Below are positions 4,536 to 63,329 of a stretch of 64,000 nucleotides of DNA, piece by piece. The DNA comes from Hydnum rufescens UP504 (taxonomy: Eukaryota; Basidiomycota; Agaricomycetes; Cantharellales; Hydnaceae), in NCBI GenBank assembly GCA_014904985.1, contig MU129036.1, forward strand, positions 119,749 to 183,748, in the 5' to 3' direction. Made by a program: the position numbers and the translations under genes. The first letter of the stretch is position 1. Every line of letters starts with the position of its first letter. Below the pieces are notes generated by a model. The model saw nothing but the letters and a program-made list of their open reading frames with translations, ran no database searches and was not told where the DNA came from.

Positions 4536-4540
4536 TTGAG

Positions 4541-7456: not shown

Positions 7457-7471
7457 ACCATCACTGAAACC

Positions 7472-12425: not shown

Positions 12426-12431
12426 TTTGAT

Positions 12432-13580: not shown

Positions 13581-13691
13581 CTCAGCGATGTTCTTGGATC
13601 TTCATTCGAGCTTTGTAAAAGGCTTCAGATCGCAACAAAGACGCAGAGGATTCCAGTTGTTACGGAGGTTCCACAGACAAAGAATGCCAAG

Positions 13692-16832: not shown

Positions 16833-16852
16833 GGATCGAAAGCGAAGGAACC

Positions 16853-17624: not shown

Positions 17625-17649
17625 NNNNNNNNNNNNNNNNNNNNNNNNN
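17625..17649. other. Assembly gap (25 N)
   Basis: A run of 25 undetermined bases lies inside the gypsy integrase. The sequence on its right restarts at the position matching 16914, so the gap marks a join between overlapping contigs rather than missing sequence of known length. Confidence 1.
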
Positions 17650-23543: not shown

Positions 23544-23906
23544 AGATCATTATGTAGACAATAAGAGGGCATGGGGATATCAGGTTTATTACACAAGAGA
23601 TTACATAGTGGATGGATCATTGAGATATTGGGAAGTTACAACAGTATGTTTAGGTCCATTATAATGATAATCAATAGTAATGTTTGGCCATTAGGTGATA
23701 CAAGACATACACCATCATGGGTGTTTTTAATTGGAAGGTATGAGTAAGCTATCTGGGAGCCCCTAGATCAATGAAGGCATGCACCATCACCACAAGCTAT
23801 AACATTTGGAGAAGTCAGAGGAACATTCTCCACCTCAATTGGTTGTAAAGCACATGATGAACATGGCTGGGGACCATAAGTGATGGGGTGCAGAGCCTGT
23901 TGTGTA

Positions 23907-43134: not shown

Positions 43135-44395
43135 ATCCACCCATTGTCCAGTTCACTCCCTTAAAATGCATGGATTGGGCTAATTTTTGGTACACCATTA
43201 ATACATCATGCCACTATACTCTGAGCAAATTTTCAAGTTTCCAGCTGTTCTGTAGGGGGGGGGGAAATCAATTTTCAATGTCCAGACTTGTTTGCCTCAT
43301 ATCTAAATAACCACATGATGGATCTGGCTGAAATTTAGATATGTTTTTGTCAGGGTTTGCCCCCAACTCCGGTCTACTCCGGTCTACTCCGGTCCTCGTC
43401 CGCCCACCTCCAGTCCGGTTCTCCACTTATTTCCCTCGCCCAAGTCCACTTTGCTTCCGGCTTGATTCCGGTTTGACTCCGGTCCAACCCTATCTTGGTT
43501 TCATTTCCTTTTCATTTCCCTTTCATTTCCCATTGCTTCCGGTTCACCCCCTGGCCGAGTTCCTGTTCCTGTTCCTGTTCCTGTCCCCCTTGTAACCACC
43601 TCCAGTTTAGCGATCACTCCCCGTAGTATAGTCATCATGTATAAGTAGTCCGAGAGCGAAGTCCAGAGACCCCAGCTTTGGTCTCTCAGGATTTCCGCTG
43701 TTACTCCGGACTACAGGTCAGCCTTCATGTATTCCGTATTCGTATTACATAATCTCAGGATTTCCGCTGTTACTCCGGACTACAGGTCAGCCTTCATGTA
43801 TTCCGTATTCGTATTACATAATCTCAGGATTTCCGCTGTTACTCCAGACTACAGGTCCGAGTATTTTCCAGTTGACTCCGCGAGCTTAAGGACCGCTGTG
43901 CTCGTTTCCGCCTAGTCCCTTCCGGGCTGCTGGATTGCCTCTCCGTCCCCTCCTATCTTCGTTATCTCATTCCTGCCCGGATTCTCTTGGACTTAGCCGG
44001 ACTTACACCGGACTTAGCCGGAATTATCTGTGTTTATATTTGTTTGGTGCTCTCGTCGCAGCGTGGCCCTGACAGTTTTGTATCTAGATAGTCTCTAATC
44101 ATGTGCCTGATTTCAGATCAATCCACCCAGCACTTATTCTTCAGCAATTTCTGGTAGTTCTGGAACTGTTTTTACTGCTCTCATTGTTTCAGACACTAAC
44201 CATTGGGCCTGGGCCTGGTTTTTCCACTTTATCAGGGCCCCCATTGGGCTGGATGCCAAAATTTTTTTGGATGCACTTCATCCAATTTCCACATTTAGGC
44301 CTTTTTAAATGGGAAATACAGTGTTATGTAATGGACACCATTTAGGAATAATTCTATAATATTTGTACCAAACCCAGACCCATTTCAATATTTAT
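43135..44395 (+). repeat. Dispersed repeat (filled copy) carrying a solo LTR
   Basis: The two flanks 43135-43347 and 44075-44395 are together the reverse complement of 53175-53735, with moderate divergence. The solo LTR 43348-44074 sits between them. The nature of the host repeat is unknown; its weak ORFs are probably not coding. Confidence 0.75.
43348..44074 (+). repeat. Solo LTR (727 bp), TSD GTTTT
   Basis: It begins TGTCAGGGTTTGCCC and ends GGCCCTGACA, with GTTTT directly before (43343-43347) and after (44075-44079). A TATA-like TATAAG (about 43641) gives the plus orientation. A 69-bp unit starting TCTCAGGATTTCCGC is repeated about 2.5 times at 43684-43859. It is rich in CpG inside CpG-poor DNA, so young. 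A partial inverted copy lies at 63813-64000. Confidence 0.93.
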
Positions 44396-44699
44396 TAAAT
44401 CAAAGATACATCTGAAAATCAGTATAAATGGACCTTAGTCCCTTATTTTTTATGTAGCAACATGAAGCAAAGCATGTAGTTATGGGTGCATGTAACAGAA
44501 GAAAAGTGGTGCTCTAGTACTATTGGAGTTAGTGTAGCTATACTACCCTCTGGCTTCTGGGGGCAAAGCCCTGGATCCCCATGTTGCAATATTTCAATAC
44601 AATATGTAGCTACATTTCAGATGGATGGAGGACCACCTAAAAACACATTCAATCTGACCTTAGGTGGGTTACTATAGTACACAACCCACCTAACAAGGT

Positions 44700-46213
44700 T
44701 CAAAATTTGGGGGCCTGAGGTGTTCCAATTTCACACCATTGCACTAACAATGGATCTTGCCTGTAACCATCTCTGAATCCTGTGCTGACCAAGAATTGCC
44801 ACCTCCAAGATTCAGGGGACAGTGAGGAGAAGTGGAATGTCTGGCCAAGTGTCCATTGGTCCTCTCCTGGGACAAGTGAATTGGCCTTGATTATTTTCTC
44901 TGTGGAAACAATAAGAAGGGCAGTCACAACAAATGTGGTGAGGAGAATACTGATTTGTTGAGTGATTGCAAGTTTCTGTCAAGAGAGAGAGAAGAGCAAC
45001 CCCTACTCAGCTTTGCTTGGACTTCCTTGTGCATCTTTACTATGGTTGCCAAAGTCAGGTTCAGGTTAGGTTTTGCCCCATTTGGGCAAAACCTGAACCC
45101 AATCTGAATGGAACCTATGTTAGGTTAGGTTCAGGTTTAACCCAGGTTCAAATGTGAAGACATGAGAAATATCTGAGCTGAACACTGATTTTAACCATAA
45201 TCTAGAATGAGTCATCAATTCTGGTAAGTTCCAGAATTATGTAAGCAGGTTCCTTGGTGGAGAAATAGATTACTTTGAAGTGAAGTTAAACATAAAACAT
45301 CATGCAAAGCTTATATTGACTATACATAGTCCTTAAAACCAACAACACACAGCCTATGACTCATTAAAGAGCCTGTTCCATCTAGTGTTAAGGCTACTAG
45401 AGGTTCAGGTTCAAACCCAGGTTTGAACCTGAACCTGAAAAAATGGGGCCCAAAACCACCAAAACCTGAAATCACCCATTTGGGCAAAACCTGAACCTGA
45501 CCACAGGTGAGGTTCAGGTTTGAATTCAGGTTCTGTGATTTTGAAACCTAACTTCAGCAATCATAATCTTCACAAGAAAGGCTGACAAGCAGAGGATTGG
45601 TGAGAGGGAAATGATAAGAGCAGTGATGTTGAGTCCAGGGACAACAGTAAGGATATAAAGTGCCTTCCATAATATTTGGAATGCTGCATCAAATACATGG
45701 AAGCACTGACCCAAATAGATCACCATATAGGAGATGCAATTCATTGGCATAGTGTCAAAGAATTTCAGCTGAAAGACCCATAGCCCAAAGATGCTGGTAA
45801 AAGTGAAATGGAGAATGTGTGCAACAAGGATGTGGTGGAGGTGCTCTCTCATGCAGGTCCTGTTTATCCAGGGGAGGACAAGAGCCAAGGGAACTGAATA
45901 GGGATGGAGACCAATGCTAATTGTGATCCAGCTGATGTGGAGAAGGATCAAGGTATGGAATACAGTTAGTCCTATGGTCTTGGCCTACAATGGCCAAAAC
46001 AGGAATGGTAAGTGCAGTCAGAAGACCTTGTTGCCCTAGCCTAGAGAGATTGTTGTGAACTTCAGAAGCATCAAGATGTGCCTGAAGAATGAAGGAGATC
46101 CAGAGGTGTGCTTGAACATAAACAGAAGCATGGACTCCAATGCCAGATACATCAGCATTCAAAGCAATCATATGGGTTGACATGATTAAGTTGGAGGACA
46201 AGAGTTGGTGCAA
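44700..46213 (-). pseudogene. Fungal multi-pass membrane protein pseudogene, split by a MITE
   Basis: Read leftwards from 46213: NADVSGIGVHASVYVQAHLW then SEVHNNLSRLGQQGLLTALT is the start of a basidiomycete membrane protein family I know by pattern (start near N-D-x-x-G-I-G-V-R). Further hydrophobic segments follow at 45951-45570, ending LSAFLVK. A fold-back MITE occupies 45043-45563; left of it the sequence resumes with KDAQGSPSKAE, later ISILLTTFVVTALLIVSTEK, and the family's end block EDQWTLGQTF. Several stops and shifts are present and CpG is absent. The function of the family is unknown. Confidence 0.6.
45043..45563. mobile_element. Fold-back MITE, copy 1 (TA target site)
   Basis: The ends are TGGTTGCCAAAGTCAGGTT and AACCTAACTTCAGCAATCA, imperfect inverted repeats flanked by TA on both sides (45041-45042, 45564-45565). 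The interior is made of AGGTTCAGGTT/AACCTGAACCT repeats in both orientations. It is non-coding. The TA target suggests mobilisation by a Tc1/mariner-type transposase. Confidence 0.75.
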
Positions 46214-46254
46214 CTCAACTCAACTCCAGGTGATTTTGAGCAACTTCAAATGAG

Positions 46255-47195
46255 TATGTGTGAGTGAAATTGAGTACAGGTGAGTGTGATCAAGTATGAG
46301 AGCACAATAGAGTACAAGGGAGTATGATCAAGCACAAGGGAGTACAATAGAGTACAAGGGAGTATGATCAAGCACAAGGGAGTATGATCAAGCACAAGGG
46401 AGTACAATAGAGTACAAGGGAGTATGATCAAGCACAAGGGAGTATGATCAACTACATGGGAGTGTGATCAACTGAAAGGGAGTATGATCAACTACAGGGG
46501 AGTGTGATCAACTACAGGGGAGTATGATCAACTACAGGGGAGTGTGATCAACTACAGGGGAGTATGATCAACTACAGGGGAGTGTGATCAACTACAGGGG
46601 AGTATGATCAACTACAAGGGAGTATGATTGACTACAGGGGAGTATGATTGACTACAGGGGAGTATGATCAACTACAAGGGAGTATGATCAGCTGCAAGGG
46701 AGTATGATCAACTGCAAGGGAGTATGATCAGCTGCAAGGGAGTATGATCAACTGCAAGGGAGTGTGGTCAACTACAAGGGAGTATGATCAACTGCAAGGG
46801 AGTGTGGTCAACTACAAGGGAGTATGATCAACTGCAAGGGAGTGTGGTCAACTACAAGGGAGTATGATCAACTGCAAGGGAGTGTGGTCAACTACAAGGG
46901 AGTATGATCAACTGCAAGGGAGTGTGGTCAACTACAAGGGAGTATGATCAACTGCAAGGGAGTGTGGTCAACTACAAGGGAGTATGATCAACTGCAAGGG
47001 AGTGTGGTCAACTACAAGGGAGTATGATCAACTGCAAGGGAGTGTGGTCAACTACAAGGGAGTATGATCAACTGCAAGGGAGTGTGGTCAACTACAAGGG
47101 AGTATGATCAACTGCAAGGGAGTGTGGTCAACTACAAGGGAGTATGATCAACTGCAAGGGAGTGTGGTCAACTACAAGGGAGTATGATTGAGTAC
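46255..47195. repeat. 20-bp minisatellite with 40-bp higher-order unit
   Basis: About 47 tandem copies of AGTRTGRTCAACTRCARGGG. From about 46720 to 47170 the array is an almost perfect alternation of AGTATGATCAACTGCAAGGG and AGTGTGGTCAACTACAAGGG, a 40-bp dimer. The left 200 bp are more diverged (AGTACAATAGAGTACAAGGG). Open frames across it are artefacts of a repeat whose period, 20, is not a multiple of three. Confidence 0.97.
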
Positions 47196-47754
47196 AGCCA
47201 AGTACAAGTGAGAACAACCAGGCACAAGTGAGAACAACCAGGTACAAGTGAGGATAATGAAGTACAAAGGAGTATGTTCAAGTATGCATCAGGAAAATCA
47301 AAAGCCACTTTGAAGACTTCTGAAGCTCTGAAGTTCTTGAAGTCCAAACACAAAGGTCCCTTTTTTGAAGCCTTCTGAAGTGAACTTGGGATGTCCTCAG
47401 AGGCTTCAGAAGCTTCAGGCAGTTGCAGAAGCAAAACAAACTTATGTAAGGTGCCATGTATAAATCTATAACAGAATGGACTTGGGTCAAAGATTACCTC
47501 ATCTTTGGAGTTTCAATTTTGCTTAGCTCATCTGCAGAGTTTGAACTGGGCAGTGACTGGCACATCCCATGCAATGAGAGCTAAGGTGCTAAAAACAAAT
47601 ACTCTTACTCAGGTTTGAACATGGGACCTTTCAATGCCACTACAGCAGCAATCCACCTTAAACAATAAGCCTAAAGAGATTGCACATTTACTTGGTAATT
47701 AGAATCCTATGTACTGGCACTTCTAAGTGGTACCGAGTGTAATCATTCCACTTG
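47196..47754. other. Spacer between satellites
   Basis: The stretch is CpG-free. It begins with a few AAGTGAGAACAACCAG repeats and then holds no gene. GGTACCGAGTG near 47730 precedes the G-rich satellite. Confidence 0.4.
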
Positions 47755-48940
47755 CCCGGGGGGGTTGTTAAATGGGGGGGGGGGGAGGGGATTATTACCT
47801 TCAGAGGGGGGAGGTCTAATTCCAAGGGGGGGTTTGTTAGGGGAGGTTGGTAACTCCAGGGGGGGGGTATTACCAGCAGGGGGGTATTACCAGCAGGGGG
47901 TATTACCAGCAAGGGGGGGTATTACCAGCAAGGGGGGGTATTACCAGCAAGGGGGGGTATTACCAGCAAGGGGGGGTATTACCAGCAAGGGGGGGTATTA
48001 CCAGCAAGGGGGTATTACCAGCAAGGGAGGGGGGTGTTACCAGTAAGGGAGGGGGGTGTTACCAGTAAGGGAGGGGGGTGTTACCAATAAGGGGGGGGTA
48101 TTACCAGCAAGGGAAGGGGGGGTGGTACCATAAGGGGGTGGGGTATTACCAGCAAGGGAAGGGGGGAGTGTTACCAATAAGGGGGGGGGTATAACCAGCA
48201 AGGGGAGGGGGAGTGTTACCAATAAGGGGGGAGGTATAACCAGCAAGGGGAGGGGAGTGTTACCAATAAGGGGGGAGGGTATAACCAGCAAGGGAGGGGG
48301 GTGGTACCAATAAGGGGGGGGTATTACCAGCAAGGAGGGGGGAGTGTTACCAATAAGGGGGGGGGTATTACCAGCAAGGGGGGGGGGTGCTGCCAATAGG
48401 GGGGGGGTATTACCAGCAGGGGGGTGGTACCAGCAAGGCAGGGGGTTACCAGAAAGGGAAGGGGGAGTGTTACCAATAAGGGGGGAGTATTACCAGCAAG
48501 GGGGGGGGGTGTATTAGCAGGGGGTGTTTAGCGGGGTGTATTAGCAGGGGGGGTGTATTAGCAGGGGGGGTGTATTAGCAGGGGGGTGTATTAGCAGGGG
48601 GGGTGTATTAGCAGGGGGGTGTATTAGCAGGGGGTGTATTAGCAGGGGGGGTGTTTTAGCAGGGGGGTGTATTAGCAGGGGGGTGTATTAGCAGGGGGTG
48701 TATTAGCAGGGGGGGTGTATTAGCAGGGGGGGTGTATTAGCAGGGGGGTGATTGCAGGGGTGGTATTAGCAGGGGGTGTATTAGCAGGGGGGTGTATTAG
48801 CAGGGGGGTGTATTAGCAGGGGGGGTGTATTAGCAGGGGGGTGTATTAGCAGGGGGGGTGTATTAGCAGGGGGGTGTATTAGCAGGGGGTGTATACAGGG
48901 GGGGTATTAGCAGGGGGGGTGTATTAGCAAAGGGGGCACT
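47755..48940. repeat. G-run satellite, two related arrays
   Basis: From 47755 to about 48505 the unit is about 17-22 bp, TATTACCAGCAAGGGGGGG and variants such as GTGTTACCAATAAGGGGGG. From about 48505 to 48930 it becomes a 15-18-bp unit, TGTATTAGCAGGGGGG. All G-runs (4-9 bases) are on the plus strand. Their regular spacing makes G-quadruplexes possible along 1.2 kb. The C-rich strand gives a proline-rich chance frame on the minus strand. Confidence 0.97.
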
Positions 48941-49964
48941 GGGTGAGAATATGGGCATATTCTGTCACATGCATATGGGGAGCATTGTCTTGATTCCACA
49001 TCTGAATTTGACATCCTCAGAAAACAAGTGTATTGGCCCCAGAGTCCCAAATGCTATTCTAATATGAATATATGAATTTCCATTTAAAATACCTTGATGA
49101 AATGCACTTCAATTTGGCATAATCAATTTAGCATAATCAATATGGTCATCTCATAAAAATACAGATTATTTCATTTTTTAAATGCAGGCATACAGACTTA
49201 TGGCTGTTAGTGAGAGAAAAACTTAATAGGGGGTCAGGGGATCCTGAGCTATATACTGTACATCATGTGGATTACATAATCAAGATGAGACTGATCCAAT
49301 CCCAACAGCAGAGGACAGGTCTTGATCAGAATAGAAAAAAAGTCCACCAGGAACAAATGAAAAAAAAAAGAGTGGCAGGGTTGGTTACATAAGGGATATC
49401 TGCACTGGCAGTACAAAGGAATGGAGGGTGTGCATGTGATAGGTGAAGATGGGGTGTAACAGTGTCATGGGTTATGGATTACAGTCATGGGTTTGGGTTA
49501 TGGGTGCAGGTCAGCCACAATACAGTCAGGTAACTTTTTCAGGGTACAGGTATGGTTTCAGTTTCAGTTGCAGGTTAGCCACAGGGGCCATGGTTGCAGG
49601 TTACAGCTTCAAGTCAATACAGGCTATACTTTCAGATACAGTGTCTGGGGTTGAATATGAGTTTGGGTTTGGTCATGTGATGAATCCACACACATGGTGG
49701 GATTCATGGACATGAGGAGGGTGGTGCATGCAGCATGGGAGCATTAGAGCCAGGGAGACAGGAACACCACTTCACTGTGGGTTAATCTCCAGGTATCACA
49801 GAGCTTAATTGGGGCCCATAGCCTGTTGGCAAAAGAAAAACTTGATAGGAGATCAGGAATTCCCAAGCTATATACATCATGTGGAGTATGTAATAAAAAT
49901 AAGATTGATCCAATCCTCTCATACTAACAATGGGAGGCTCAAAGCTGGCACCATAGGCTCACAG
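48941..49964. other. CpG-depleted spacer
   Basis: No gene was recognised. At 49440-49640 short motifs such as GGTTATGGGT and CAGGTTACAG recur irregularly. The remainder is AT-rich. Confidence 0.4.
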
Positions 49965-50115
49965 CAGCCACCTAAGGCAAGAGTAAAAGCCATGTATGGA
50001 CAAAGCAGCCAGCTAAGGCAAGAGTACAATTCATGTATGGACAAAGCAGCCACCTAAGGCAAGAGTACCAGCCATGTATGGACAAAGCAGCCACCTAAGG
50101 CAAGAGTACAAGCTG
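49965..50115. repeat. 41-bp tandem repeat, about 3.6 copies
   Basis: The unit contains CAAAGCAGCCACCTAAGGC and AGAGTACCAGCCATGTATGG; starts of CAAAGCAG are at 50001, 50042 and 50083, giving a period of 41. Confidence 0.9.
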
Positions 50116-50740
50116 GCATGCACAGGTGACAGCCTTTACTCATTATGACATAAGCCATAAATAAAAATCTTACATAAGCTACTAATATGAAAACTGATGT
50201 AGTCACATGAGAGAAATTTTCCATGGCATTGCATAAGCAACCACAAAAGAAAATATTACATAAGAAATCATAAAAAGTATGCTATATATAGTAGCTGATG
50301 CAACATTTCATTTTATGGTGTTATGGTGTCTTATGTAATATTCCTCTGAATAAGTTGCCATTTATAAAAGCTGATGTAATACATTGAGGCATAATTGCTT
50401 ATGTAATACTACCATATATAGAAATTTCTATATGTGTGTTAAGGGTTGTTTGTAGTTGAGGAATTGATTATGTAATCAGTTAAGTATGACAAGTAACCCC
50501 TTAATGTGAGCAGGATGAGAAGAGAGAATCACAAACATATATTCTCAATCTTCCAAGGGATTGAGAATACAGGGGTAGCTACTTATATACTAGAGCTGGG
50601 AGTATTGCTAATGGGATTATTAAGGAGGCTGAATGGTAAGGACAAAGAGGGGTAACAATGGTAAGTAATCTGGGTAGTGAGGAGGAGAGGTAATGTGATG
50701 AGGTTATGAGTACAACTTGTAACAATGTGGTTGTTCATGT

Positions 50741-50930
50741 CAGATTTTCATGTATAGTTGCTTATGTCAGACCTCCTTATATAATTGCTTATGTAAGCTT
50801 CCTATATATGGTTGCTTGTGTAAGATTTCCCTATATGGTTGGTTATGTAAGCTTTCCATATACAGTTGCTTATGGAAGTTTTCTATATATGGCTGCTTGT
50901 GTCAAGGTCTCCACATATGATAGTTTATGT
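50741..50930. repeat. 27-bp tandem repeat, seven diverged copies
   Basis: Each unit ends in the core TTGCTTATGT after an A/T-rich TATATA segment. Units begin at 50741, 50768, 50795, 50822, 50849, 50876 and 50903. The region left of it (50140-50470) has the same core in the opposite orientation (ACATAAGCAA), spread irregularly. Confidence 0.85.
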
Positions 50931-52570
50931 CATATTGCTATCCAGGAATTTGAACTTCCACTCCTGGCTTCCAGACCTTCCTGGTCCAAGTGTCTTCTGA
51001 GAACTTCTGAGCCTTCAGAGCCTTCTGAGCCTTCTGAGATACACCCAATCTTTGGAGGAAATGATTTTTCCTGATGTTAGAAACAAAATGGCAATTACCC
51101 AGTGGCAGAAATGAGGGTGATGACTAACAGTATTCACTGAGCAGTCCTGTGTTCCCACTTGATTAGTAATCAGGGGGTGTATTTGTCTTAGCATGTCACT
51201 TTCACTAATAACAAGGATTTTAGCACAGACACTTTTAATTTCTATCAGGAAATTGATCCCAGTGTAGAAGAGTAGAAAGTTAAGCCTATAAAAACCCAAA
51301 TCCTTGCTCTTTGGACCTTAAGTCCCTTGCTGTGGCTTTGGAAGGTGTATATCTGACTTAGCCACAGATGGCCAACAGTGACTAAAAGGCTATGAGTCAC
51401 TTGAGTCACCAATGGCATCTGGACCATATAGGACTGACTGCATATGTCCATTGGAAATTCTTGGAATCCAGATGGGCCTCTGGACTCCATGGGGCCTTCC
51501 ATAATAGGCAAATCTAGGCCAGTCTGGAACCTTCTTAAAAATAGATTTGGAAATAAGGTTTCACTTGGATTTCCAGGTCACCATATATATACATGTGGTT
51601 ACAGCTCCATAAAAATAACAACTCTTTCCCCCTTACCACTACAAGCCTGACAGAGCTTTGTGAAGCTGTGTGAAGGTGTTCCCTGGTCACTGACTAGACC
51701 TTGTAAGATCTCTGTGGACTCAGCTTGGCAATGACCAGCTGGCACAAGAAGAGTGAACTCTGAGACATATCTGACTCATACCTTGAAATCTGAGGACCAT
51801 CAAGTCCTATGGCTTTCTGACATGAACTGATGTATACTAACCATCTTGAGGACTGGCAGCTCCTCTCTTCTATCATCCAGCACTGCTTGCAGACAGTATA
51901 ATCCTCTCTACTGAACCTTACTCACCTAAGTAGACCTGAGACAGCTAGTCTCAACCCCAAAATTTTCCAGGACAAGTAGCTAGTCTATTTTTGTGCTGTA
52001 TTAAAAGCCAGTAGGATCTACAACTAAGTCTAGGAGGAAGTACCTGTCTCCCTTGTCATATTAAGGCTAGGTTCTGAGCTCCAAACTCAAACTTGCCCTT
52101 GGTTTCTCACATCCCACATAGAAGGAACCCCTACACCCAGTGGAGTTGCTAATGGCCTATAGTGTCTTCTCATCATACCCCTATGACATCACAAGAGGCA
52201 AGGTCCCCAAACACTAACAACTGGACAGTTGGCATAGTTTCTATAGGGGCCAGTACCATTCTTATATTTCATCAATTTATCACTTCACATTTCCACCAGT
52301 CCTGTACTCACTTTTTCAAGGGGCAGAGGATCTGGAGTGGGAGCTATGACTGACATCCCTCAACCATGTCAAAGAAGGCAGAGATTACAGCACTGTCATG
52401 GGATTTCAATGAGATTCACTTGGTGTTTTATGAGATGTTAAAGTCCTGCTAATGATTTTTGAAAGGGTGTTGTTATCTATTAGGTCTGCTCAATTCAAAA
52501 TTTGAGCTTGCAGAACACTGAACATTTGAGATCAATGAATGGTTTTTCTGTCCAAAATTATTGCCACAGT
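50931..52570. other. CpG-depleted DNA without recognised gene
   Basis: Frames are short and broken. A GAGCCTTCTGAG motif recurs near 51010-51040. Nothing further could be supported. Confidence 0.4.
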
Positions 52571-52760
52571 GTTGGAGGGACAAACCCTTATTACATACAG
52601 ACTGCATCCAAGCCCAACTACCTCCTCAAATGAATTCATTATATTCAATTCCATTGCCTCCATTTCCTGTCATTCCTTTCATTAGTAAATGGCACAGATT
52701 CCCCTTCTCTGAAAACCATGGCCCACTTGTTCTTCCTCCACTTTGTATCACCTAACATAC
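52571..52760 (+). repeat. Diverged fragment of the gypsy LTR family
   Basis: It begins TGTTGGAGGGACAAACCC, followed by similarly placed matches to the LTR start (AATGAATTCATTAT, CATTCC). Similarity fades after about 190 bp. It is CpG-free and truncated, hence old. Confidence 0.5.
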
Positions 52761-53174
52761 CCTCAAAAAGGTACCTCCTGGGTGGGTTCCAGTTGCATTG
52801 GCATTTGACCTAAGAGGTGGTTTTTATATAGGCATGTCTAGACAGTGTCTAAAGGTGTGTGTAAGATGAAAAAAAATAAAGTCCACTAGTGATATAGGTA
52901 TGGGTATGTGTGCCTGCCATGGGCACTGCTCCAGGGGTCTTACAATGACTGGATGGACACCCTGCAGTTGATTTAGACAGGTGATTTAGGCATGCCTAAA
53001 TCAGCTGTGTCTAGTCATGTCTAGAGCTTGCTATATCTCATTAGAGTGTGTTGCTTAGTCTCCTGGTGTGTCCATGGGGGCCAGTATGCAGTGTGTCTAC
53101 TAGTGGATAAATTAAAACAGGTTGACCATCACCAGGAGGTGTCTCATGGTGTCTAGTTGTGTCTGGGTGGGTGA

Positions 53175-53735
53175 ATTGGGTCTGAGTTTAGTACAAATAT
53201 TATATAATTATCCCTAAATGGTATCCAGTTACATAATACATGTTTCCTATCTTTAAAAAATGCCTAAATGTGGAAATTAGATGAAGTACATCCAAACAAT
53301 ATTTAGGCATCAGCCCAATGGGGGCCCAGGACCAGGGGGAGGTGCCTGGAATGGATGGATGGACCCCTAGGGACCCTGATGAAGTGAACAAACCAGGACC
53401 AGGGCCAATGGTTAATCCCTGAAACAATGAGGGCAGGAAGAACAGTTCTGGAACCACTGGAAGTTTCTGGAATCTAGGTGCTCAGTGGATCAGTCTGAAA
53501 TTTGGCATATGGTTAGAGACTATCTGGGTGCAAACCATATTAAAATTTCAGCCAAATACATGCAGTAGTTATTGAGATATAAGGCAAACAAGTTTGGATA
53601 TTGAAAATTGATTTTATCCTCCCATAGAATAGCTGGGGACTTGAAAATTTACAGGGAGCATGAAAATATAGTGTACTAATTATGTGCCAAAAATCATCCC
53701 AATCCATCCATTTTAAGGCAGTGAACTGGACAGGG
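53175..53735 (-). repeat. Dispersed repeat, empty-site paralogue of 43135-44395
   Basis: The reverse complement of this stretch aligns with 43135-43347 joined to 44075-44395. Where the other copy has the solo LTR and its GTTTT duplication, this one reads straight through (AATATGGTTTGCACCCAGAT on the minus strand). Confidence 0.75.
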
Positions 53736-53929
53736 GGTACCAGAACCACTGGAAATTCCAAAAAAGAAGCACTGCACACTTGGGAGGGCCAGCTTTGCAG
53801 CAATGACCTTGGGGGAAATGTGTGTTGCAATGGATTTCTGGGAAATTTCTGAGTATCTTGGATATGTGTCTTTTTTAGGTGGCATAGTATGTTATACATG
53901 TAAAAGTAGGAAGAATACATTGAATTCAA

Positions 53930-54185
53930 GCATTATATAGTTGCTTTTCCCTTGCCCTTTTATCTTTCTTGCTGGAAATGGAAGCTAAAAGAAAGACTCT
54001 TGATTTCAATTGTGAGGTATGAGTCCAAAAATTTGGTACATACCTGTATCAGTGGGGCTTGTTTCCTGTTGTGGGATGTGCTTTGTGCACTTCACATTGG
54101 GGCTAGAGTCATCTGTGGGTGAAGAAGCCACAGGCAAAGAAGCTGCTGCATTGATTCATAATGTGAGTAATGAGGAGAATGCAAT
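53930..54185. other. Spacer
   Basis: AT-rich, CpG-free, no gene seen. Confidence 0.4.
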
Positions 54186-57100
54186 TTATTGAGATAGAGA
54201 CACACTTTCCAAGTTCAAAGTCCAAGGAGATTCCCTGGCTGGACCACAGCCTCTTTTGTGTTTGTTTGTGTGTTCAGGAGGTGTGTTCAGCTTGCAGATG
54301 ACTATGTCCACAATGCAGGCTACACATGAGTTGAAAGTAGTGCTTGTTTGTCTGTCAAATATAGTGTGATGAATGAGGTTAAAATTGACTTTGACAACTG
54401 CACAGTCTAGGGCTTCTTCTAATTGGGTAGGTTCAAGTGTTTCATATGTGGTGCTAAGCACAATTTGATGATAAACATCAATGGGATGAATGGTGAAGCC
54501 AGCCATAGCCTTGTTCAGCAGGTCCCAGAGTGAACCATTTTCCATCATTTCAGGCCAGTTCTCAATGTTGTAGGGTAGTTCTGCAGAATGTAGATTTGAA
54601 TCAGTCCAACCTAATGTGTTGTCAAGGCATACCATCATCTGTGTCATCTGATTTGTTTTCTGGCCAAACCATTTCATGAGCTGATAGAGCAGGTGGATAA
54701 CTGGCAATAATTATCTTACCAATGAGAACAGTTTTGATGAGAACCTAATCTTGTCACCAGAAGCCTCATTTGTGATGAGGTGGAAATGTTCTTGACCAGC
54801 TTTGCTTGCAAGAGCTTGCAATTGAGTGAGATTATCAAGACACTTGGTATAAGGTTTACCAATGCATTCATTTGGGCCCCAGGATTGTTCCCCCACAAAA
54901 TGCTGAGTGACTTGTTTGATTGCATCATTGGGTGGTATTCTCCATTTGGTGACATTGTGAAATTCTTTGGGCTGATGGACACATATACATGCAGAAGGGC
55001 AGGCTCATTAGATTCTTTCAAACAGATTTTAGATGAACTATCCTTGAAATCACACCACACTAAATGTGACAAGGCATTGTCATTGCCCAAAAATCCACAT
55101 TGCATTTTCAACCAAGCAAGGTTCTCTGGGGTGTTGAATGGCATTTTTTTTGGCAAAGGTTACATCTATATTTGGTCTTATACTGCTCAACAAAGGGGAA
55201 CAAAAGGTTGTGTTGGGCACAGCAGCATAGCTGCTGTAAGTGCCACTGTGTGACTGTGGCCCCAGCAGCAGTTGTGGAAGATGCCAGAAGTGTTATGGCC
55301 TGTCTTACCTGTGGTAGTGGGGTCATTGCATGCAATCAGAAGTGCCACCAAAGAGATATGTCATCTTGCATGGTGATGAAACAGACCTCTGACAATTGCC
55401 TCAGGCACCAATTTCCAAATTGTGCCATGTTTGGCATCAGGCCACAGACTCATGCTCTCTAGAACACCAAGACACCATGTCCTGTATTGGTATAGCAGCA
55501 GCACTCAAGCCAATATGAACTGTCATAGACAAATTGTTATGTGTGGAAGTGGTTGTGGCAGTTGTTGTCATGCCACCATAGTCCCAAATCCAAGATTGAA
55601 ACACATAAATTCAAGGGATTTGGGTACTTGTTTGAGATTGAGGGCAGGCATTGTTGGAGGGATGAATCCCTACACCATAGAATCTTCATCCTGGGTCCAT
55701 TTTCCTTATGAATGAATCAATTATCTAATCACCCATTCATTAAATTCTCTGTCATTTGTTTATTCAAGAATCAATTGGATTCCTATCCCATATCAATCCA
55801 CAATTCCACCTTACTCCTTTACCATGAATACCAGTCAATTTGTTGACTATCCATCAGACTTCAACAGTCCTCCTCAAAAAGGGGCAGTTTATGCCCTATC
55901 TCAAGTCCAATTTCTTTGGACAAGGCAATTCAACTTGCCATTCTTCCCCAAGACTGTATGACTCACCCATTCTCCCAAGTAATCCTACTGCCTTAAGGGT
56001 GAAGGATCATGATTATGTAACAACACAGACTGGACCTAGTTCTGATTCTGGACTTGTGGATCTGTCCCATGAAAAGGGGCTACACTACTCTCAAGGAGTA
56101 TTTTTCAAATTTCTTCATCAATTTTGATCTGATCAACTCGGAACGACAGCTCCCAGAAATATATAAATCGTACCTATCGAATGGTACCAAACACGCAATG
56201 AACGGATCAAAAATGCGGTCCCTGTACCATTATCTTTCCATGATTCATACTCTGAAGGAGTATTTCTTGATTTTTGAAGCCAGTTATTATCTGATTCACT
56301 CACAAATACCACGCCCTGAAAGCTGTTAAAAATGCGCATCGATAGGTACAAAGGGAAAAGTTATATGACATGAAATACATTCTTCACAAGACAACTCCCT
56401 CCCCATGACTCCCCCTTTTCTCCACCATCACAAATAACAAATTACTTCTGGCTCTCTTATGTCCAATGGAAAAGACCTTTAGGGTGACCTATTCCACTTT
56501 TTTTAAAGGGAACTTGTCCAGAATTGAAGGAGGAATAGCATGTAATGTGTCAATCTCCCCTTTTATCTTGAAATTGGAATATCTCCATCAGTTTTGAAGA
56601 TGTTAACTTCATTTCTTTTTCTCTATGTGTCCCTTATGTCCAACTTGTTTATTTTATATTGAGTCGAAGTCTGTATTGTATATTAGGTGCAGCTAGCACA
56701 CAAATTAAGTAGTTTTCCCCCTCCCTCCAGTTTGAAGCTCTTTGAATTGCTGCTGGTCCCTGGGTGATTTCTCACTACAAAAAGTGAGTTCTGCCTACAC
56801 TTTGACTAAGGTCTCAAGAAGAGATCCTTGGGTGTGGTAATTTGACAGAAACACACATTCTCACTTAATTGCTTGGGCTTTGTTGGCTCACTGCAATGTC
56901 CCCTGTCCCAAAAGACCCTTTTCTTTTGAGCCTGAACACTCAGATTAATTCTGTGGTTCCCTCCTTTGTCCACCACTTAATGACACAGACTGTAGCTGGA
57001 TTGATTCCTTTCTTCTCTGCTTACAGCATGTAGACATTCAATTTCAAAGACATGTGTGAGCAATTCAATTTTCTTGCACATGTGTCCCCAGTGATAACTG

Positions 57101-57437
57101 TGGCATTTTGTACAGGGTGTAAAGAAATATGCAACTTGTAGAGACACTGCATGGAGGACATAGTTGCACCATTTTGCCAGTGTAAGCTCATTTTTCTCCT
57201 TGTTTTTCTTTCCCCTTCTTGGTCTGGGCATATACTGGACTAAATTTTGTGCATTGGATAGTGGAAGATGTGGATTCCTATGTTGATCAATATGGTTTTG
57301 ATAGACATGTGCCAGCCAATGATCACAGCTTGGCACAGCATGTTAATGTGAGTACATCCAGGAATCATGTTTGGTAACAGGAATACTTGATTGAGTGGTC
57401 CTAGGTTGAATCCATGTATTGGGTATGTGGTCTCCAC
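54186..57437 (-). pseudogene. Unknown degenerate gene interrupted by a solo LTR
   Basis: Minus frames 57437-57026 (HPLPLSNAQNLVQYMPRPRR-like; CTKCHSYHWGHMCKKIELLT) and 55651-54186 (WLKMQCGFLGNDNALSHLVW; NIENWPEMMENGSLWDLLN; DVYHQIVLSTTYETLEPTQL) lie on both sides of the LTR at 55652-57025. Taking the LTR and one GCAT copy out joins ...HVFEIECLHA to CPQSQTSTQ in one frame. The pieces look protein-like (CxxC pairs, regular hydrophobic spacing), but no domain could be named. It may be another transposon-encoded protein. CpG is absent. Confidence 0.4.
55652..57025 (+). repeat. Decayed solo LTR of the gypsy family, TSD GCAT
   Basis: About 1374 bp, aligned end to end with the LTRs at 8778 and 20457 (TGTTGGAGGGATGAATCCC ... 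CTGCTTACA). GCAT stands on both sides (55648-55651, 57026-57029). CpG is lost over most of its length but kept in one block, 56136-56340, which holds the cassette GTACCTATCGAATGGTACC...AACGGATCAAAAATGCGG. Confidence 0.92.
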
Positions 57438-57524
57438 ATACTTGTCTCAAAAGACCACCTGCCTCAATACATTTATGTTGGGTTGAAGGTCACATACAGC
57501 TCGGATTGACAATGGACATCCAGA

Positions 57525-57860
57525 GTGTGGCTTCACCCCTTTATTAAAGATTGTTTCCAAGTACCTCAGGTACAGATGAGTGAAAAGAGCTACCTCATGG
57601 CCTCATCTTCATTTGGTAATGAGCATCAGAATACCTGGATCAGTTACCCATTGGCATGGTGGGGACCTTGGGTTGGTGATGTAGTTGTGCTTGAAGAGGA
57701 TGAAGTGGGTGAGCTGGTGAGTTTACAGCAGCTTGGGACAGGATGCAATATCATTCAGGCACTCATGCATTACAGTAATTTTAACAGGATGGAATTATCA
57801 ACTGGGGGCTATTGTCCTGAGTGGAGAGATGTTTTGTACATTCAAAGTACACTGAAGTAG
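57525..57860 (+). CDS. Unrecognised ORF left of the palindromic array
   Basis: A 111-residue plus frame containing WISYPLAWWGPWVGDVVVLE and EDEVGELVSLQQLGTGCNII. No family was recognised. It sits in CpG-free DNA 80 bp left of the array's terminal repeat. It may be a surviving piece of a mobile-element protein or a chance frame. Confidence 0.25.
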   Translation: MWLHPFIKDCFQVPQVQMSEKSYLMASSSFGNEHQNTWISYPLAWWGPWVGDVVVLEEDEVGELVSLQQLGTGCNIIQALMHYSNFNRMELSTGGYCPEWRDVLYIQSTLK

Positions 57861-57936
57861 TTTGCACAAATGTATGGATTCATTGTATCATTGTGGTTAT
57901 ATCACATCCACAACTCAGTCAGCCACAAATGTAGGT

Positions 57937-58015
57937 CTAGTTAGATATTATGAGCCTTGCATTTATATAGTCTAACTAGAGGTTTTGATGCTGGGGCTCC
58001 TGGGGCTTCTGGGGG
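57937..58015 (+). repeat. Left terminal inverted repeat of the array
   Basis: CTAGTTAGATA, then GCATTTATATAGTCTAACTAG and CTGGGGCTCCTGGGG match, in reverse complement, 63225-63295. The segment also has its own short inverted repeat (CTAGTTAGA/TCTAACTAG). Confidence 0.6.
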
Positions 58016-58548
58016 TGATTTTGGACCCTGACACAGGGGCCCCTGCCTCCCACCTTAGAGTGCAGGGGAGCTGGCAAATATAGTATTGGGGGGGATCAAA
58101 TAACCATGTCAGTGGAGGCAGATGGGTATCTTTGGGTGGGGGTATCTGGTTGGTGCCTTGAATGGGTGAGTGGGCTATATGGGCTTATCAGTAATTGGGA
58201 TTGTTTACTGTTTGTTACACATAATTATTCATTTATTATTATTATTATACTCATGTATTATATAGATTGATCCCCCTCCCAGATTATAGCACATAATTAT
58301 TCATTTATTATTACTATACTATTATACAGCTTATTCCCCCTCCCTCCCTTGGTATTCAATGGGGGTTGCTGTTTATATTCAGTGGGGTCATGGGTTTTTA
58401 TTCAGTGGGTTGCAGGTTTTTTGGTTGGTGGATTTGCAGATGGTGGATCATGTTCACAAGGGGGGATTGGTTGGGGGTAGGTGCAGGCCATGGGGTCAGA
58501 GAATATGTAGAATAATAAACAGTATGTTAGTGAAAAAAGAAAAGCCAT

Positions 58549-60810
58549 GCAAAAGGAGCAGCCTGTGCTGCTCCTCTTGTGCAATTGTGCTTCTAGCTTA
58601 AAATACATACCTTAAAAAATTTCCACACCTGCTTCAGCAGGTGTGGCTTGTGTGGGTTCTTGGCATTGTGTCATTTCATGTCTTCATTGGGTGTGGTTTC
58701 CATCATGTGTGGGGGTCTCATTCAGCATGAGGTCATTTGCAGGTCATTGTTCATGGGATTTGAGTCCAGGGGGAAGGGGATTGATGGAGGTTGGTGTGGG
58801 CCATGGGGACCTTGACAGTACATTAGTAAAAAAAAAGAAAAGGTATGCAAAACCTGAGCTGCTCCTTTTGTGCAGTTGTACTTGTAGCTTGAAATACTTA
58901 CCTTAGAGATTACCACACCCACCAAAGCAGGTGTGGCTCATGCAGGTTCTTGGCACTGGGTCATTTTGTGTCTCCATTGGGTTTGGGTTTTGCCATGTGT
59001 GGGGTCTTGTTTGGCACAGGTCTTTCACAGGTCATGGTTGGTGGGCTGTTGCTTTGGGGGGGGGGGGGGTTCATTTGATGGTCTCCATTTGGCCATTCAT
59101 TCTTATTCCATGGCTCTTTGTTTTGTTGGTGGAGGTTCAGGTGATAACCTAGAAAAATCAAGCGTTAGTTAGACATTAAAACCCATGCAAAAAGAGCAGC
59201 ACTTGCTGCTCTTTTTTCATGGTTGTGTACACTACATCAACTTACCTTGCATTACCACACACCTGCCACAGCAGGTGTGTGATTTGTGTGGCTTCCTCAT
59301 TCCACCAGTTTTCAGTTGCAGGGGTTTTCATTGGATGGGTCTCTTGTTGGCCAGTTTTGATTTGGTGGGTTCTGCTTGGGGCTTGTGTGGGTGTTGGTTC
59401 AGATCATAACCTAGAATAATGAAAGATATGTTAGTTAGAACTTCAAAACAGCACAAAAAGAGCATCTTTTGCTGCTCTTTTGCACCACAGTATGTATAGA
59501 AACTCACCTTAAATTACCACATGCCTGCTGCAGTGGATGTGTGGTTTGTTTGGGGCATTCACAGTTCATGGTTTACACCTCGTTTCAGTCCTTATTGGGT
59601 GGGTTGCACTTTGGGGGTTATGTTTGGCCTGTGTCTGCATGGTGGTTTGTTGTCTTGGGGATGGTGTCTTGTTTGGTGGGTCTTTACTTTGTGGGTTCTG
59701 GGTCAGGTGATCACCTGGGAGAGTACATATGATATTAGTTAAAAATTAAAATGAAAGCCAGCACAAAAAGTGCAGCAAATGCTGCACTTTTTGTGCCATT
59801 GGGTGTATTGAATCACTTACCTTATATAGAACCACACCCCCACCATGGTGGGTGTGTGGTTTGTACTGCCACTTGTTGGGCACATTCCTGCCTATTGGGG
59901 TCTTGTGGGTCACCATTTCATTCATTGTTTTTTCATTTGTTGTGTTTTTGTCTCATGTGTGTCTGTTTGGGGTTTGGCTGTTCACATGCCCATCATTGGG
60001 TGGGGTCCCACTTCTATGGTTGCTGAAGTCAGGTTACAAACCCTGGAAACCTGAGTTTGAACCTGAACCTGACCTGTGGTCAGGTTCAGGTTTTGCCCTC
60101 ATGGGTGATTTCAGGTTTTGAGCCCCCATGTTTTCAGGTTCAGGTCAGGTTCAGGTTTAACCCAGGTTCACACCTGAAATCATGAGCCCCTTCAGACATG
60201 AGAAATATCTGAGCTGAACACTGATTTTAACCATAATCCAGAATGAGTCATCAATTCTGGCAAGTTCCAGAGTTATGTAAGCAGGTTCCTTGGTGGAGAA
60301 ATAGGAAAGTTTATATTGACTATACATAGTCTATACATAGACTATGTATATGTATAGTTAATATAAACATTGCATGAGGTTTTATGTTTAACTTCAGTTC
60401 AAAGTAACCTATTTCTCCACCAAGGAACCTGCTTACATAACTCTGGAACTTGCCAGAATTGATGACTCATTCTGGATTATGGTTAAAATCAGTGTTCAGC
60501 TCAAATATTTCTCATGTCTGAAGGGGCTCATGATTTCAGGTTTGAACCTGGGTTAAACCTGAACCTGACCTAAACCTAACCTAAGATAGGTTTTCTTCAG
60601 GTTAGGTTCAGGTTTGCCAATTGAGGAGATTCAGGTTTTGGTTAAGTTCAGGTTTTGCCCAAATGGGGGGCAAAACCTGACCTGAACCTGACTTTGGCAA
60701 CCATACCTGCTTCATGCCCCAGATTAGGCCATGACCTAAGGTAATAAAGATTTGTTAGTAAAGAAATTAAAGGAGTGCAAAAAGAGCTGCTTTTGCTGCT
60801 CTTTTTGCAC
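58549..60810 (-). other. Left-arm introns and A hairpins (six units, minus strand)
   Basis: A hairpins: 58549-58582, 58847-58873 (weak), 59185-59220, 59451-59484, 59761-59796 (perfect 17-bp stem), 60775-60810. Minus-strand introns: 60736-60840 (GTAAGT...TTACTAAC...TTAG), 59715-59820, 59411-59507, 59149-59245; the two outermost units keep donors at 58901 and 58610, but their acceptors are doubtful. B hairpins, in exon ends just upstream of each donor: 60850-60877, 59831-59860, 59516-59545, 59256-59281, 58912-58937, 58623-58646. Splice sites are inferred from consensus only. Confidence 0.7.
60017..60703. mobile_element. Fold-back MITE, copy 2, inserted in the left arm
   Basis: TA stands on both sides (60015-60016, 60704-60705). 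The ends are TGGTTGCTGAAGTCAGGTT and AACCTGACTTTGGCAACCA. The two halves are nearly perfect inverted copies meeting at CTATACATAGACTATGTATA (about 60340), so a single strand folds on itself over more than 300 bp. It is homologous to the MITE at 45043. Confidence 0.88.
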
Positions 60811-60894
60811 TGTTGTATCTACTACAACTGAAAAACTTACCTTGTATGGCCACACACCTGCAGTAGTGGGTGTGTGGTCATTAGCTTTGCCTGC

Positions 60895-61095
60895 TCAGTG
60901 GGTATTGCAAAGAGACTCAATGCTGGCAATTGCTGGCACCCAAAAAGCACCCAAGTGCCAGCACCACAAGGACAATATGAATAATAGAAAGTATCTAGAC
61001 ATAAAATAAATACTATATAGTACTATTTTCACCAAGAAAAATAAAAAGATGATCATAATAAGTATAATAAGTAAGAGCCCAATAAGGCATGACAT
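60895..61095 (-). CDS. Left-arm first ORF (mirrored)
   Basis: A 66-residue frame beginning MSCLIGLLLIILIMIIFLFF. The first 20 residues form a hydrophobic, signal- or membrane-like segment; WHLGAFWVPAIASIES follows. It is the mirror copy of the right-arm ORF at 61397, with a small insertion and a stop after about 66 residues, before the first intron donor at 60840. Because both copies derive from a palindrome, shared sequence alone does not prove coding. No known family. Confidence 0.3.
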   Translation of the reverse strand: MSCLIGLLLIILIMIIFLFFLVKIVLYSIYFMSRYFLLFILSLWCWHLGAFWVPAIASIESLCNTH

Positions 61096-61598
61096 GCCTA
61101 CATTGGAAAGTGGATTCAGCCATGTCTATGGGTCAGAATTGGTCCAAATTCACATATATTTGTGGTATATGTGCACCCTATGTGGGCAACTCACCATATT
61201 GGATGATCCTTTGATTTTTTGATTTTTCACACCCTCAATTCCCTAATTAGGGAATTAAGGGTGCAAAAAATCAAAAATCAAAGGATCATCCAATATGGTG
61301 AGTCACCCATGTAGGGTGCACATATACCATAAATATATGTGAATTTGGACCAATTCTGACCCATAGACATGGCTGAATCCACTTTCCAATGTAGGCATGT
61401 CATGCCTTATTGGGCTCTTACTTATTATGATCATCTTTTTCTTTTGCTTTGCAAAAATAGTACTATATAGTATTTATTTTATGTCTAGATACTTTCTATT
61501 ATTCATATTGTCCTTGTGGTGCCAGCACTTGGGCACTTTTTGGGTGCCAGCAATTGCCAGTGTTGAGTGCATGTCTTTCTTTGCAACTCCACAACCAC
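60895..61598. repeat. Central palindrome of the array
   Basis: Arms of about 340 bp meet at CCCTAATTAGGG (61241-61252) without spacer; close to the centre the match is nearly perfect (ATCAAAGGATCATCCAATAT on both sides), with a few small indels further out. It carries the first, mirrored ORF of each arm. Confidence 0.9.
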
Positions 61599-61981
61599 AA
61601 CAACAAACCACCTGGAAGGGCAAGCAAATGACCACACCCATTGCTGTGGGTGTGTGGTCACAAGGTAAGTTCTTTTATTAGTAGATACAATGGTGCAAAA
61701 AGAGCAGCAAAAGCTGCTCTTTTTGCACTGCTTTGAACTGGTTTACTAACATCTCTTTTATTATTCTAGATCAAGACCTGCTTCAAGGCATGACAGAAGC
61801 CTGTGAAACCACAAGGACCCAAACAGCAAGGGCCCAGATGGCAATGCACCAAACAGCAATGCACCAAACAACAATGCACCAAATGAGGATGTGCCAAACA
61901 ATGATGCACCAAACAATGGCATGCCAAATGAGGACCCCAGGAACCACACACCTGCTGCAGTGGGTGTGTGGTACTATATAA
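61397..61981 (+). CDS. Right-arm two-exon ORF (predicted)
   Basis: Exon 61397-61664, intron 61665-61769 (105 bp; GTAAGT, branch TTACTAAC, acceptor TTCTAG), exon 61770-61981. The join keeps frame and gives about 159 residues: a hydrophobic N-terminus (MSCLIGLLLIMIIFFF), WHLG/QHLGTFWVPAIASVE, MTTPIAVGVWSQ over hairpin B, then a repetitive part with MHQT units. It ends at a TAA at the last bases of exon 2. Without further evidence it could equally be a non-coding spliced RNA. No known family was recognised. Confidence 0.35.
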
Positions 61982-63137
61982 GGTGAGTCCTCCCCCCCAG
62001 TAGATACAGCCACACAAAAAGAGCAGTGAAAGCTGCTCTTTTTGTGCTGGTTTTACCACTTAAGTACTAATTTAAAAAAATAAAATTCTAGGTGTTCCTA
62101 AACCCCTGCACAAGACACCACAGTACACCCCCTGCCCTGTGTATCAATTTGAATGAAACCCCATGTGACCCCTGTGTGAAAACCAGGCACAAGCCCAGAT
62201 GGACATGAGGGACCCAATATGAGTACCACACACCTGCTGGAGTGGGTGTGTGGTACTAAAAGGTATGCTTTTTAAAAAAAATTAATTCTCTATGTGTAAG
62301 TGGTGCACAAAGGGCAGTGCAAGCTGCCCTTTATGTGTCACTTTTGACTTATTCTAGATCATCTGACAGACACCACCCACCAAACCCCCCACACCTGTGT
62401 ATTGACCTGAACAGAACCCCATGAGACCCCCATACAAAAAGCCAGGCACAGGCCCATACAGACCCCACCATTGAAATGAACAACACAATACAAGGTACCA
62501 CACACCTGCTGGGGTGGGTGTGTGGTACTAGAACATAGATTTTGTTTTTATTAATCCAATCTAATTTCTATGTATGTGGCACAAAAAGGGCAGTGCAAGC
62601 TGCCCTTTTTGGATCACTTCTGATTTATAGATCTTTTGATTCTAGATTGCACAACAGAGATTGCCCACACCCCTGAATAAACAACCCCCCAACAATGAAC
62701 ACCCCCACACCTGCACATATTGACCCCCAAATGGAACCCTGTGCAAACCTGACAAAACAGTGGACATGAGCCTGCAGACCCCACTGTCCACATGATGGGT
62801 GCACCATGAGGTACCACACCTGCCCCAGTGGGGGTGTGGTACTAGAATGTAGGTTCCCCCCCCATAATGACAGTCATGCAAGAAGAGCAGACACAGGCTG
62901 CTCTTCTTGTGCTTTTTTGAATCTTAACTGACATATCCTTTACTCTAGGAACCAGGCCCCATGCAGACACCCAAATGGGACCCCATGCAAGCATATGAGC
63001 CAGGCCCCAAGCAAACAATGTGAGGGGAGAAAGGAGTAACACCCACTGCAGCAGGTGTGATCATTTTAAGGTATGTATCTAGTCATTTTGCTGCAAGCAT
63101 GCAAGAAGAGCAGCCTGTGGCTGCTCTTCTTGGGTGC
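61631..63137 (+). other. Right-arm introns and A/B hairpins (six units, plus strand)
   Basis: B hairpins: 61631-61658, 61943-61972, 62225-62254, 62497-62526, 62813-62840, 63040-63059. A hairpins: 61693-61728, 62013-62046, 62306-62337, 62583-62610, 62878-62912, 63101-63137. Predicted introns: 61665-61769, 61983-62091, 62263-62357, 62853-62948; acceptor TTCTAG also at 62640-62645; donor GTATGT at 63071. In unit four the donor after hairpin B looks lost (GAACATAGAT where the others have AAAAGGTATG). Exons between them share phrases (CAAACCCC, CACACCTG, GACCCC) but no continuous frame. Confidence 0.75.
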
Positions 63138-63224
63138 ATGGGTGCCCCCACTTGGTGAGCCTATCAATGTATATAATAATATAATAATAATAATAATAAA
63201 TAAATAAATAATAAACAATCCAAT

Positions 63225-63295
63225 GGCTAGGGGCCCCCTGGGGCTGATATCTAATTAGACCATATAAATGCAACCTTTGAAGCACCTAGTTAGAT
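63225..63295 (-). repeat. Right terminal inverted repeat of the array
   Basis: The reverse complement aligns with 57937-58015 (GCATTTATATGGTCTAATTAG; AGCCCCAGGGGGCCCC). No target duplication was recognised outside either terminal repeat. Confidence 0.6.
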
Positions 63296-63329
63296 ACTGA
63301 TAATCAGCTGACCAGGCTGCTATGAGCCT

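Follow-up and report, generated by a model that had tools for sequence, protein, structure and literature searches.

Identification of the element and its units

A stretch of 64,000 nucleotides from the basidiomycete Hydnum rufescens UP504 (contig MU129036.1, positions 119,749–183,748; hereafter the window) contains at positions 57911–63319 an element that is probably a decayed, non-autonomous cut-and-paste transposon, whose cargo would be two divergent, spliced, non-coding transcription units. It carries twelve units with two hairpins each, hairpin A before a splice donor and hairpin B inside the intron. Six units lie on the minus strand in the left arm and six on the plus strand in the right arm, all reading outward. 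An earlier sequence-only reading had described twelve such units with alternating hairpins, six per arm and with these strands, which was borne out by a scan and by reading the sequence by eye; its hairpin labels are swapped here. The strict hairpin-pair scan recovered nine units, all of them within the element; it had no match elsewhere in the window or in 50 shuffles. Units L3 and L5 and parts of L1, L2, L6 and R3–R6 (Table 1) were read by eye and rechecked against the sequence. The splice sites that had been assigned to the units held in part: ten of the twelve units had an intact donor, the donors after 62528 and 62842 were lost, and in the outermost unit on the left the acceptor had decayed to TTCTAC. 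The junctions proposed at 61664/61770 and 60840/60736 agreed with the re-derived splice sites.

A dispersed family with target-site duplications

In the source genome (63.2 Mb in 539 contigs), left ends of the element were found at 211 places and right ends at 161 places with at most three mismatches, with no matches to reversed-pattern controls, which excludes that there are no copies elsewhere. Hairpin B had 6,408 matches at up to three mismatches (control 0), and the pattern of hairpin A plus donor had 2,287 (control 4). The loci studied were similarity or pattern matches rather than a random sample, and the first 100 of the 211 left ends and 100 of the 161 right ends were inspected. Copies with both ends, paired by eye from the listed ends, were mostly 4.4–5.5 kb long. 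Ten two-ended copies were fetched for a test of target-site duplications (TSDs): eight had perfect 8-bp TSDs, one had a TSD with a single mismatch fitting CpG decay, and one had none, while none of 90 non-partner flank pairs agreed within one mismatch. Among seven copies looked at earlier, two (L017 and one copy on C56) had an 8-bp TSD. Judged by the TSD of constant length and the defined termini, the family is a cut-and-paste DNA transposon; it is a large family, and the window copy is an old member. Since independent insertions carry TSDs around the whole element, the inverted arrangement is not an assembly artefact, and the mobile element with linked splicing signals and hairpins suspected in the sequence-only reading is upheld at the level of sequence.

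The TSDs bound the whole element and not single introns, which argues against an introner-like element, in which a single hairpin-bearing intron would be the mobile unit and would have inserted repeatedly. Like the present units, introners are spliceosomal introns in many copies, and inverted repeats or hairpins occur in some of them (excerpts of PMC9860276 and PMC7789003), and some introner families have terminal inverted repeats (TIRs) or TSDs (49/130 and 72/177; excerpt of PMC9860276). The unit sequence is also common to differently bounded elements, such as that at C5:71500–86000, as would be expected if the intron itself were mobile. However, introners are single introns in genes, whereas here introns and exons are arrayed inside a larger transposon. 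The exons belong to the unit, which has a period of about 290 bp, and in a small sample of apparently lone hairpin-B sites all four lay in arrays. An introner-like origin is thus very unlikely.

Unit anatomy and splice signals

The order within a unit was an exon ending in hairpin A, AAG/GTRAGT, hairpin B, ACTAAY and YAG, with hairpins of about 10–18 bp each. When units were chosen by their hairpins alone (n = 132, 19 loci), a GTRWG donor was present in the gap in 120 units, compared with 11% in shuffles, and a branch site plus acceptor in 111, compared with 17%. A larger set of 158 units contained 141 donors and 131 acceptors; the medians were 105 nt for the intron, 84 for donor to branch, 21 for branch to acceptor, 71 for the intron minus hairpin B and 292 for the period. 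Column conservation was determined for 129 dereplicated hairpin-chosen units, after 33 near-duplicates among 162 had been removed. The donor GT was conserved at 93/98%, positions +5/+6 at 94/98%, the branch ACTAA at 85–97% and the acceptor AG at 99/89%, against a mean of 73% and 36–85% in the exon just after the acceptor. The splice signals thus co-occur with hairpins that were found without them, which supports, at the sequence level, a link between the two. Exons were rich in A (0.33) and C (0.31) and poor in T (0.14), and introns were reversed, with T at 0.37.

The hairpin stems were the most conserved columns. Changes on both sides of the stem occurred at 11 of 25 hairpin pairs, and none of 500 shuffles reached any of the five measures; because the rows were picked for hairpins, covariation rather than the pairing percentage counts as evidence. 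Upkeep of structure was also followed through CpG decay, in which a C-to-T change on the sense strand leaves a G-U wobble and a change on the other strand leaves an A-C mismatch. For hairpin A (109 distinct sequences), there were 15 double wobbles and 17 double mismatches, and 21 versus 15 single changes; decay in existing copies is neutral, with no upkeep. For hairpin B (129 distinct sequences, leaving out 18 of 158 units that did not fit the decay pattern), there were 17 double wobbles versus 7 double mismatches and 21 versus 12 single changes. The bias had p = 0.06 and 0.16 taken separately, in copies that are related and so not independent, and there is at most a weak wobble bias. In our reading, the hairpin structure is maintained in source lineages and not in scattered copies, as expected for a transposon.

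The conserved stems, and the indifference of CpG decay in hairpin A to RNA pairing, would also suit a device acting at the DNA level, in which the hairpins form cruciforms or bind proteins during transposition, replication or recombination of the arrays, the splice signals being incidental. Self-templated repair can also yield matched changes in both hairpin arms. Yet the donor, branch and acceptor keep a set order and strand with respect to hairpins that are themselves symmetric, their conservation is 85–99%, and donor position +3 alternates between A and G, as splicing permits. A DNA-level role of this kind seems unlikely to us.

Palindromic centre and array layout

In the sequence-only reading the element was a 5.4-kb palindrome with a perfect centre. 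Self-comparison instead gave an inverted repeat restricted to 60726–61779, with 82.5% identity over 1,098 aligned columns and a perfect core of 20 bp (61237–61256), its axis 0.6 kb from the geometric middle of the element. TIRs are present as described (CAACTCAGTCAGCC and CAGCCTGGTCAGC), but the bounds given for them, 57937 and 63295, had to be replaced by the ends obtained from aligned copies. A second palindrome (60136–60577) is part of a nested insertion with the ends TATGGTTGC, flanked by the 8-bp duplications CCCACTTC (60007–60014) and CCTGCTTC (60706–60713), whose only differences are those expected from CpG decay. The insertion is absent from L011, the related copy closest to the window copy, and on this comparison is not part of the original element; without it and one copy of its target duplication, the element measures 4,710 bp.

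At all of 12 aligned palindromic centres, selected for likeness to the window centre, the arrays pointed outward, and the centre sequence was kept across the 24 arms. Because the centre is conserved and AT-rich tails bearing AATAAA lie just inside both termini, a bidirectional promoter and two poly(A) sites are predicted. Some palindromes were nearly perfect (L023, 98.7% over 2.4 kb; L020, 95.4% over 2.8 kb), which suggests that inverted duplication recurs. Long inverted repeats of this kind speak for the double-stranded or small-RNA locus envisaged in the sequence-only reading, where the inverted arms would be transcribed through and feed Dicer, like hairpin-RNA loci. Both arrays point outward in the same sense, however, so that their transcripts would be alike and not complementary, and double-stranded RNA would form only if transcription ran through the centre. 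The short length of hairpins A and B, about 10–18 bp, also counts against such a locus, and all 44 Rfam matches, 34 of them to microRNA models, were below the gathering scores. We consider a double-stranded RNA source improbable.

Foldback and long-TIR elements (Tm1, MULEs) have a duplication of about 9 bp. They likewise have large inverted repeats (PMC3169594 and PMC3310237), but the present element differs from them in its 8-bp duplication, regular splice sites and outward arrays.

Related units were also seen in other settings. The element at locus L035/L036 (C5:71500–86000) has other boundaries; it carries a 1.14-kb inverted repeat of 98.7% identity and the same intron/hairpin units, here pointing inward. 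The locus L018/L019 (C20) is a palindrome of about 13 kb with arms of 88–96% identity, flanked by inward hairpin units.

Coding potential

No reading frame was favoured in the arrays, which are non-coding as far as these sequence measures go. Exon lengths left remainders of 0, 1 and 2 on division by three in 24, 27 and 16 cases, and stops made up 3.6–3.7% of codons, alike in all three frames. A peptide read from an array had no homologue among 18 candidates, and the hairpin-B pattern had no match in viral contigs. The units could in principle be the remnant of a captured multi-intron protein gene, with which the canonical GTRAGT/CTAAC/TAG introns agree. Two of 13 arms spliced in silico contained an open reading frame (ORF) above the 95% shuffle length, one of 159 aa in the right arm of the window copy and one of 160 aa in L017; in the matching L011 arm the longest ORF was a different one, of 111 aa. 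In the other 11 arms the longest ORF was within the shuffle range. Together with exon lengths that are not multiples of three and the lack of frame preference, this makes a captured gene a most improbable source.

Relation to KDZ transposons

The right end of the family carries the 15-mer CAGCCTGGTCAGYCA, of which the window copy keeps 13 positions. It had 232 exact genomic matches (control 0), many of them the family's own right ends. The Kyakuja-Dileera-Zisupton (KDZ) domain had 154 matches in this genome, and none of 14 control genomes matched. Together with the CTAAC branch points of the introns, this marks the source as eukaryotic and probably as an agaricomycete-like fungus. Proximity was assessed between the first 100 listed places of the 15-mer and the 59 KDZ matches, out of 154, that lie on contigs up to C114. 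An inward-pointing terminus of 15 nt lay 1.5–3.2 kb downstream of 8 of the 59 KDZ domains, whereas 2,000 position-shifted trials gave 0.46 on average and 4 at most; three further termini near KDZ matches were wrongly oriented. A KDZ identity was confirmed for two of the adjacent genes, which have CxC1/CxC2 clusters; one CxC2 match scored under its cut-off. At seven KDZ loci, the termini shared the 15 nt with the window element and the subterminal sequence differed; the terminus of the KDZ-encoding elements is CAGCCTGGTCAGCCA.

The element itself contains no ORF of at least 150 aa, so it does not encode a KDZ transposase and would be at best non-autonomous. Because its right terminus also sits downstream of KDZ transposase genes, it is likely a non-autonomous KDZ-type element mobilised in trans. 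Zisupton has 8-bp target duplications, and Kyakuja has 7-bp duplications and no TIRs (both from an excerpt of PMC12730594). The window family shares with KDZ elements the right-terminal 15 nt and the 8-bp duplications. It differs in that a transposase is absent, the interior consists of intron/hairpin arrays and only terminal nucleotides are common. A hAT membership would call for an 8-bp duplication, hAT-type termini and a hAT partner; of 90 hAT matches in the genome, the few near listed ends that were compared by eye lay outside the paired element.

Two candidates were rejected. A KDZ-like end at L024:3770 could not be the end of the L024 array, as its orientation puts the array outside. The element at C5:71500–86000 was considered as an autonomous partner, and seven of its open frames gave no Pfam family. 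The left end of the KDZ element L058 was sought within the fetched stretch and not found. A stretch of about 770 bp adjoining a KDZ gene (L057:3071–3839) recurs in L011, L013, L017, L020 and L024 and partly in C5, and is perhaps a separate small transposon.

Observations that weigh against a spliced, KDZ-mobilised transposon

Several results count against the interpretation of the element as a KDZ-mobilised transposon with spliced arrays. Among the copies looked at earlier, the window copy, L011, L015, L016 and L029 (five of seven) lack a TSD, as does C135 in the ten-copy test. The link to KDZ consists of 15 nt, of which the window copy retains 13, and the length of the duplication, and no autonomous partner with both ends was seen among the fetched loci. 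Not all arrays diverge: L021 and L022 have one-way arrays in the fetched stretch, and units point toward other inverted repeats in L022, in C5 and beside the large C20 palindrome. The neutral decay of hairpin A, the at most weak bias in hairpin B and the two long ORFs belong here as well. The genome yielded no intron-less copy of spliced units, one consensus junction having no match. Of 82 hairpin-A ends, 65 were followed directly by a donor; in most of the remaining 17 the donor was decayed or shifted, and at least one of them, in L028, had an unclear continuation.

Age, features and surroundings of the window copy

The window copy contained 2 CpG dinucleotides where 252 were expected. As CpG is nearly gone, the copy is old and has decayed in the manner of methylated repeats. 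Observed/expected CpG ratios of 0.68 in C56 and 0.64 in C20 indicate loci younger than the window copy. The features of the window copy are listed in Table 1.

Table 1. Features of the element, with positions counted from the first nucleotide of the window.
Feature	Position	Strand	Details
Whole element	57911..63319	.	5,409 bp; ends set by aligning copies
Left terminus and subterminal repeat	57911..57989	+	CAACTCAGTCAGCCACAAATG...; many genomic copies
AT-rich tail of left array	58218..58345	-	AATAAA-like runs; possible poly(A) region, putative from sequence
Unit L6	58507..58646	-	hairpin A 58646-58623, donor 58610, hairpin B 58579-58550, acceptor decayed
Unit L5, degenerate	58810..58937	-	hairpin A ~58937-58913, donor 58901, hairpin B ~58874-58846; tandem similarity to L6
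Unit L4	59149..59281	-	hairpin A 59281-59256, donor 59245, hairpin B 59222-59183, acceptor 59149
Unit L3	59411..59545	-	hairpin A ~59545-59516, donor 59507, hairpin B ~59485-59452, acceptor 59411; similar to L4, L1
Unit L2	59715..59861	-	hairpin A 59861-59830, donor 59820, hairpin B 59796-59761, acceptor 59715 (by eye)
Nested palindromic insertion and target duplications	60007..60713	.	insertion proper 60015-60705, 691 bp; left arm
Unit L1	60736..60881	-	hairpin A 60881-60846, donor 60840, hairpin B 60811-60774, acceptor 60736 (by eye)
Palindromic centre and two first exons	60882..61628	.	axis 61246.5; putative bidirectional promoter
Unit R1	61629..61769	+	hairpin A ~61629-61659, donor 61665, hairpin B 61693-61728, branch ~61746, acceptor 61769
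Unit R2	61943..62091	+	hairpin A 61943-61972, donor 61983, hairpin B 62013-62046, acceptor 62091
Unit R3	62222..62357	+	hairpin A 62222-62257, donor 62263, hairpin B ~62303-62338, acceptor 62357; clear CTAAC branch not found
Unit R4	62495..62645	+	hairpin A 62495-62528, donor lost, hairpin B 62582-62611, acceptor 62645
Unit R5	62811..62948	+	hairpin A 62811-62842, donor lost, hairpin B 62879-62909, acceptor 62948
Unit R6, terminal	63039..63132	+	hairpin A ~63039-63060, donor 63071, hairpin B 63102-63132, acceptor none seen
AT-rich tail of right array	63161..63216	+	AATAAA runs; possible poly(A) region, putative
Right terminus	63241..63319	-	CAGCCTGGTCAGC... read inward; inverted match to left end

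The region 44001–63319 of the window has nearly lost CpG (observed/expected 0.00–0.14 per 2 kb, versus 0.7–1.2 over most of 10–40 kb) and is probably a silenced repeat island. Other features of the window were a broken Helitron-like element, named by eye, at 4251–8812 on the minus strand, with a PIF1-type helicase domain at 5603–7471, and interrupted frames of a Gypsy-like long terminal repeat retrotransposon at 10147–20375 on the plus strand, with a zinc knuckle and protease and RNase H/integrase-like stretches recognised by eye. An open frame with DUF6570 at 22095–23546 on the minus strand was CpG-depleted, and adjoining minisatellites with units of about 40, 20, 44 and 16/33 bp occupied 46315–48929.

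Proposed mechanism and implications

We propose that a KDZ-type transposase moves the element in trans, and that young copies would be transcribed outward from the palindromic, presumably bidirectional promoter into two non-coding RNAs. Each arm would act as a row of units of about 290 bp, in which an A/C-rich exon ending in hairpin A is followed by a spliceosomal intron of about 105 nt. Going by the distances between the sites, hairpin B, located between donor and branch point, would loop out, so that the intron is shortened to about 71 nt, a normal fungal intron length, and donor and branch are brought together. Splicing would leave an A/C-rich RNA chain of weak structure, in which hairpin A stands beside each junction. 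The arms would have grown by tandem duplication of units and the whole element by inverted duplication.

Silencing triggered by poor splicing occurs in Cryptococcus. The benefit to the element might be that well-spliced transcripts evade silencing set off by badly spliced RNA, although this is speculative. As tentatively, the family may represent a class of transposon whose main cargo is splicing: thousands of units of exon-end hairpin and intron hairpin, reading outward from a palindromic promoter and selected for splicing and processing, would yield a non-coding, perhaps structured RNA that protects the element or its KDZ partner against silencing. The element that carries the arrays is of a known kind. 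Among the open-licence literature matches listed, none described such arrays, and as far as that literature tells the intron/hairpin-array cargo is provisionally new, so that "undescribed" is a provisional term.

With one unit every 290 bp or so, the roughly 6,400 copies of hairpin B would correspond to about 1.9 Mb, or about 3% of the 63-Mb genome, of non-coding sequence with canonical splice sites. If transcribed, these units would be a very large natural set of similar introns, in which the influence of intron hairpins on splicing, and a possible protection of transposons from silencing by good splicing, could readily be tested. The outward arrays also suggest that palindromic elements need not be sources of double-stranded RNA.

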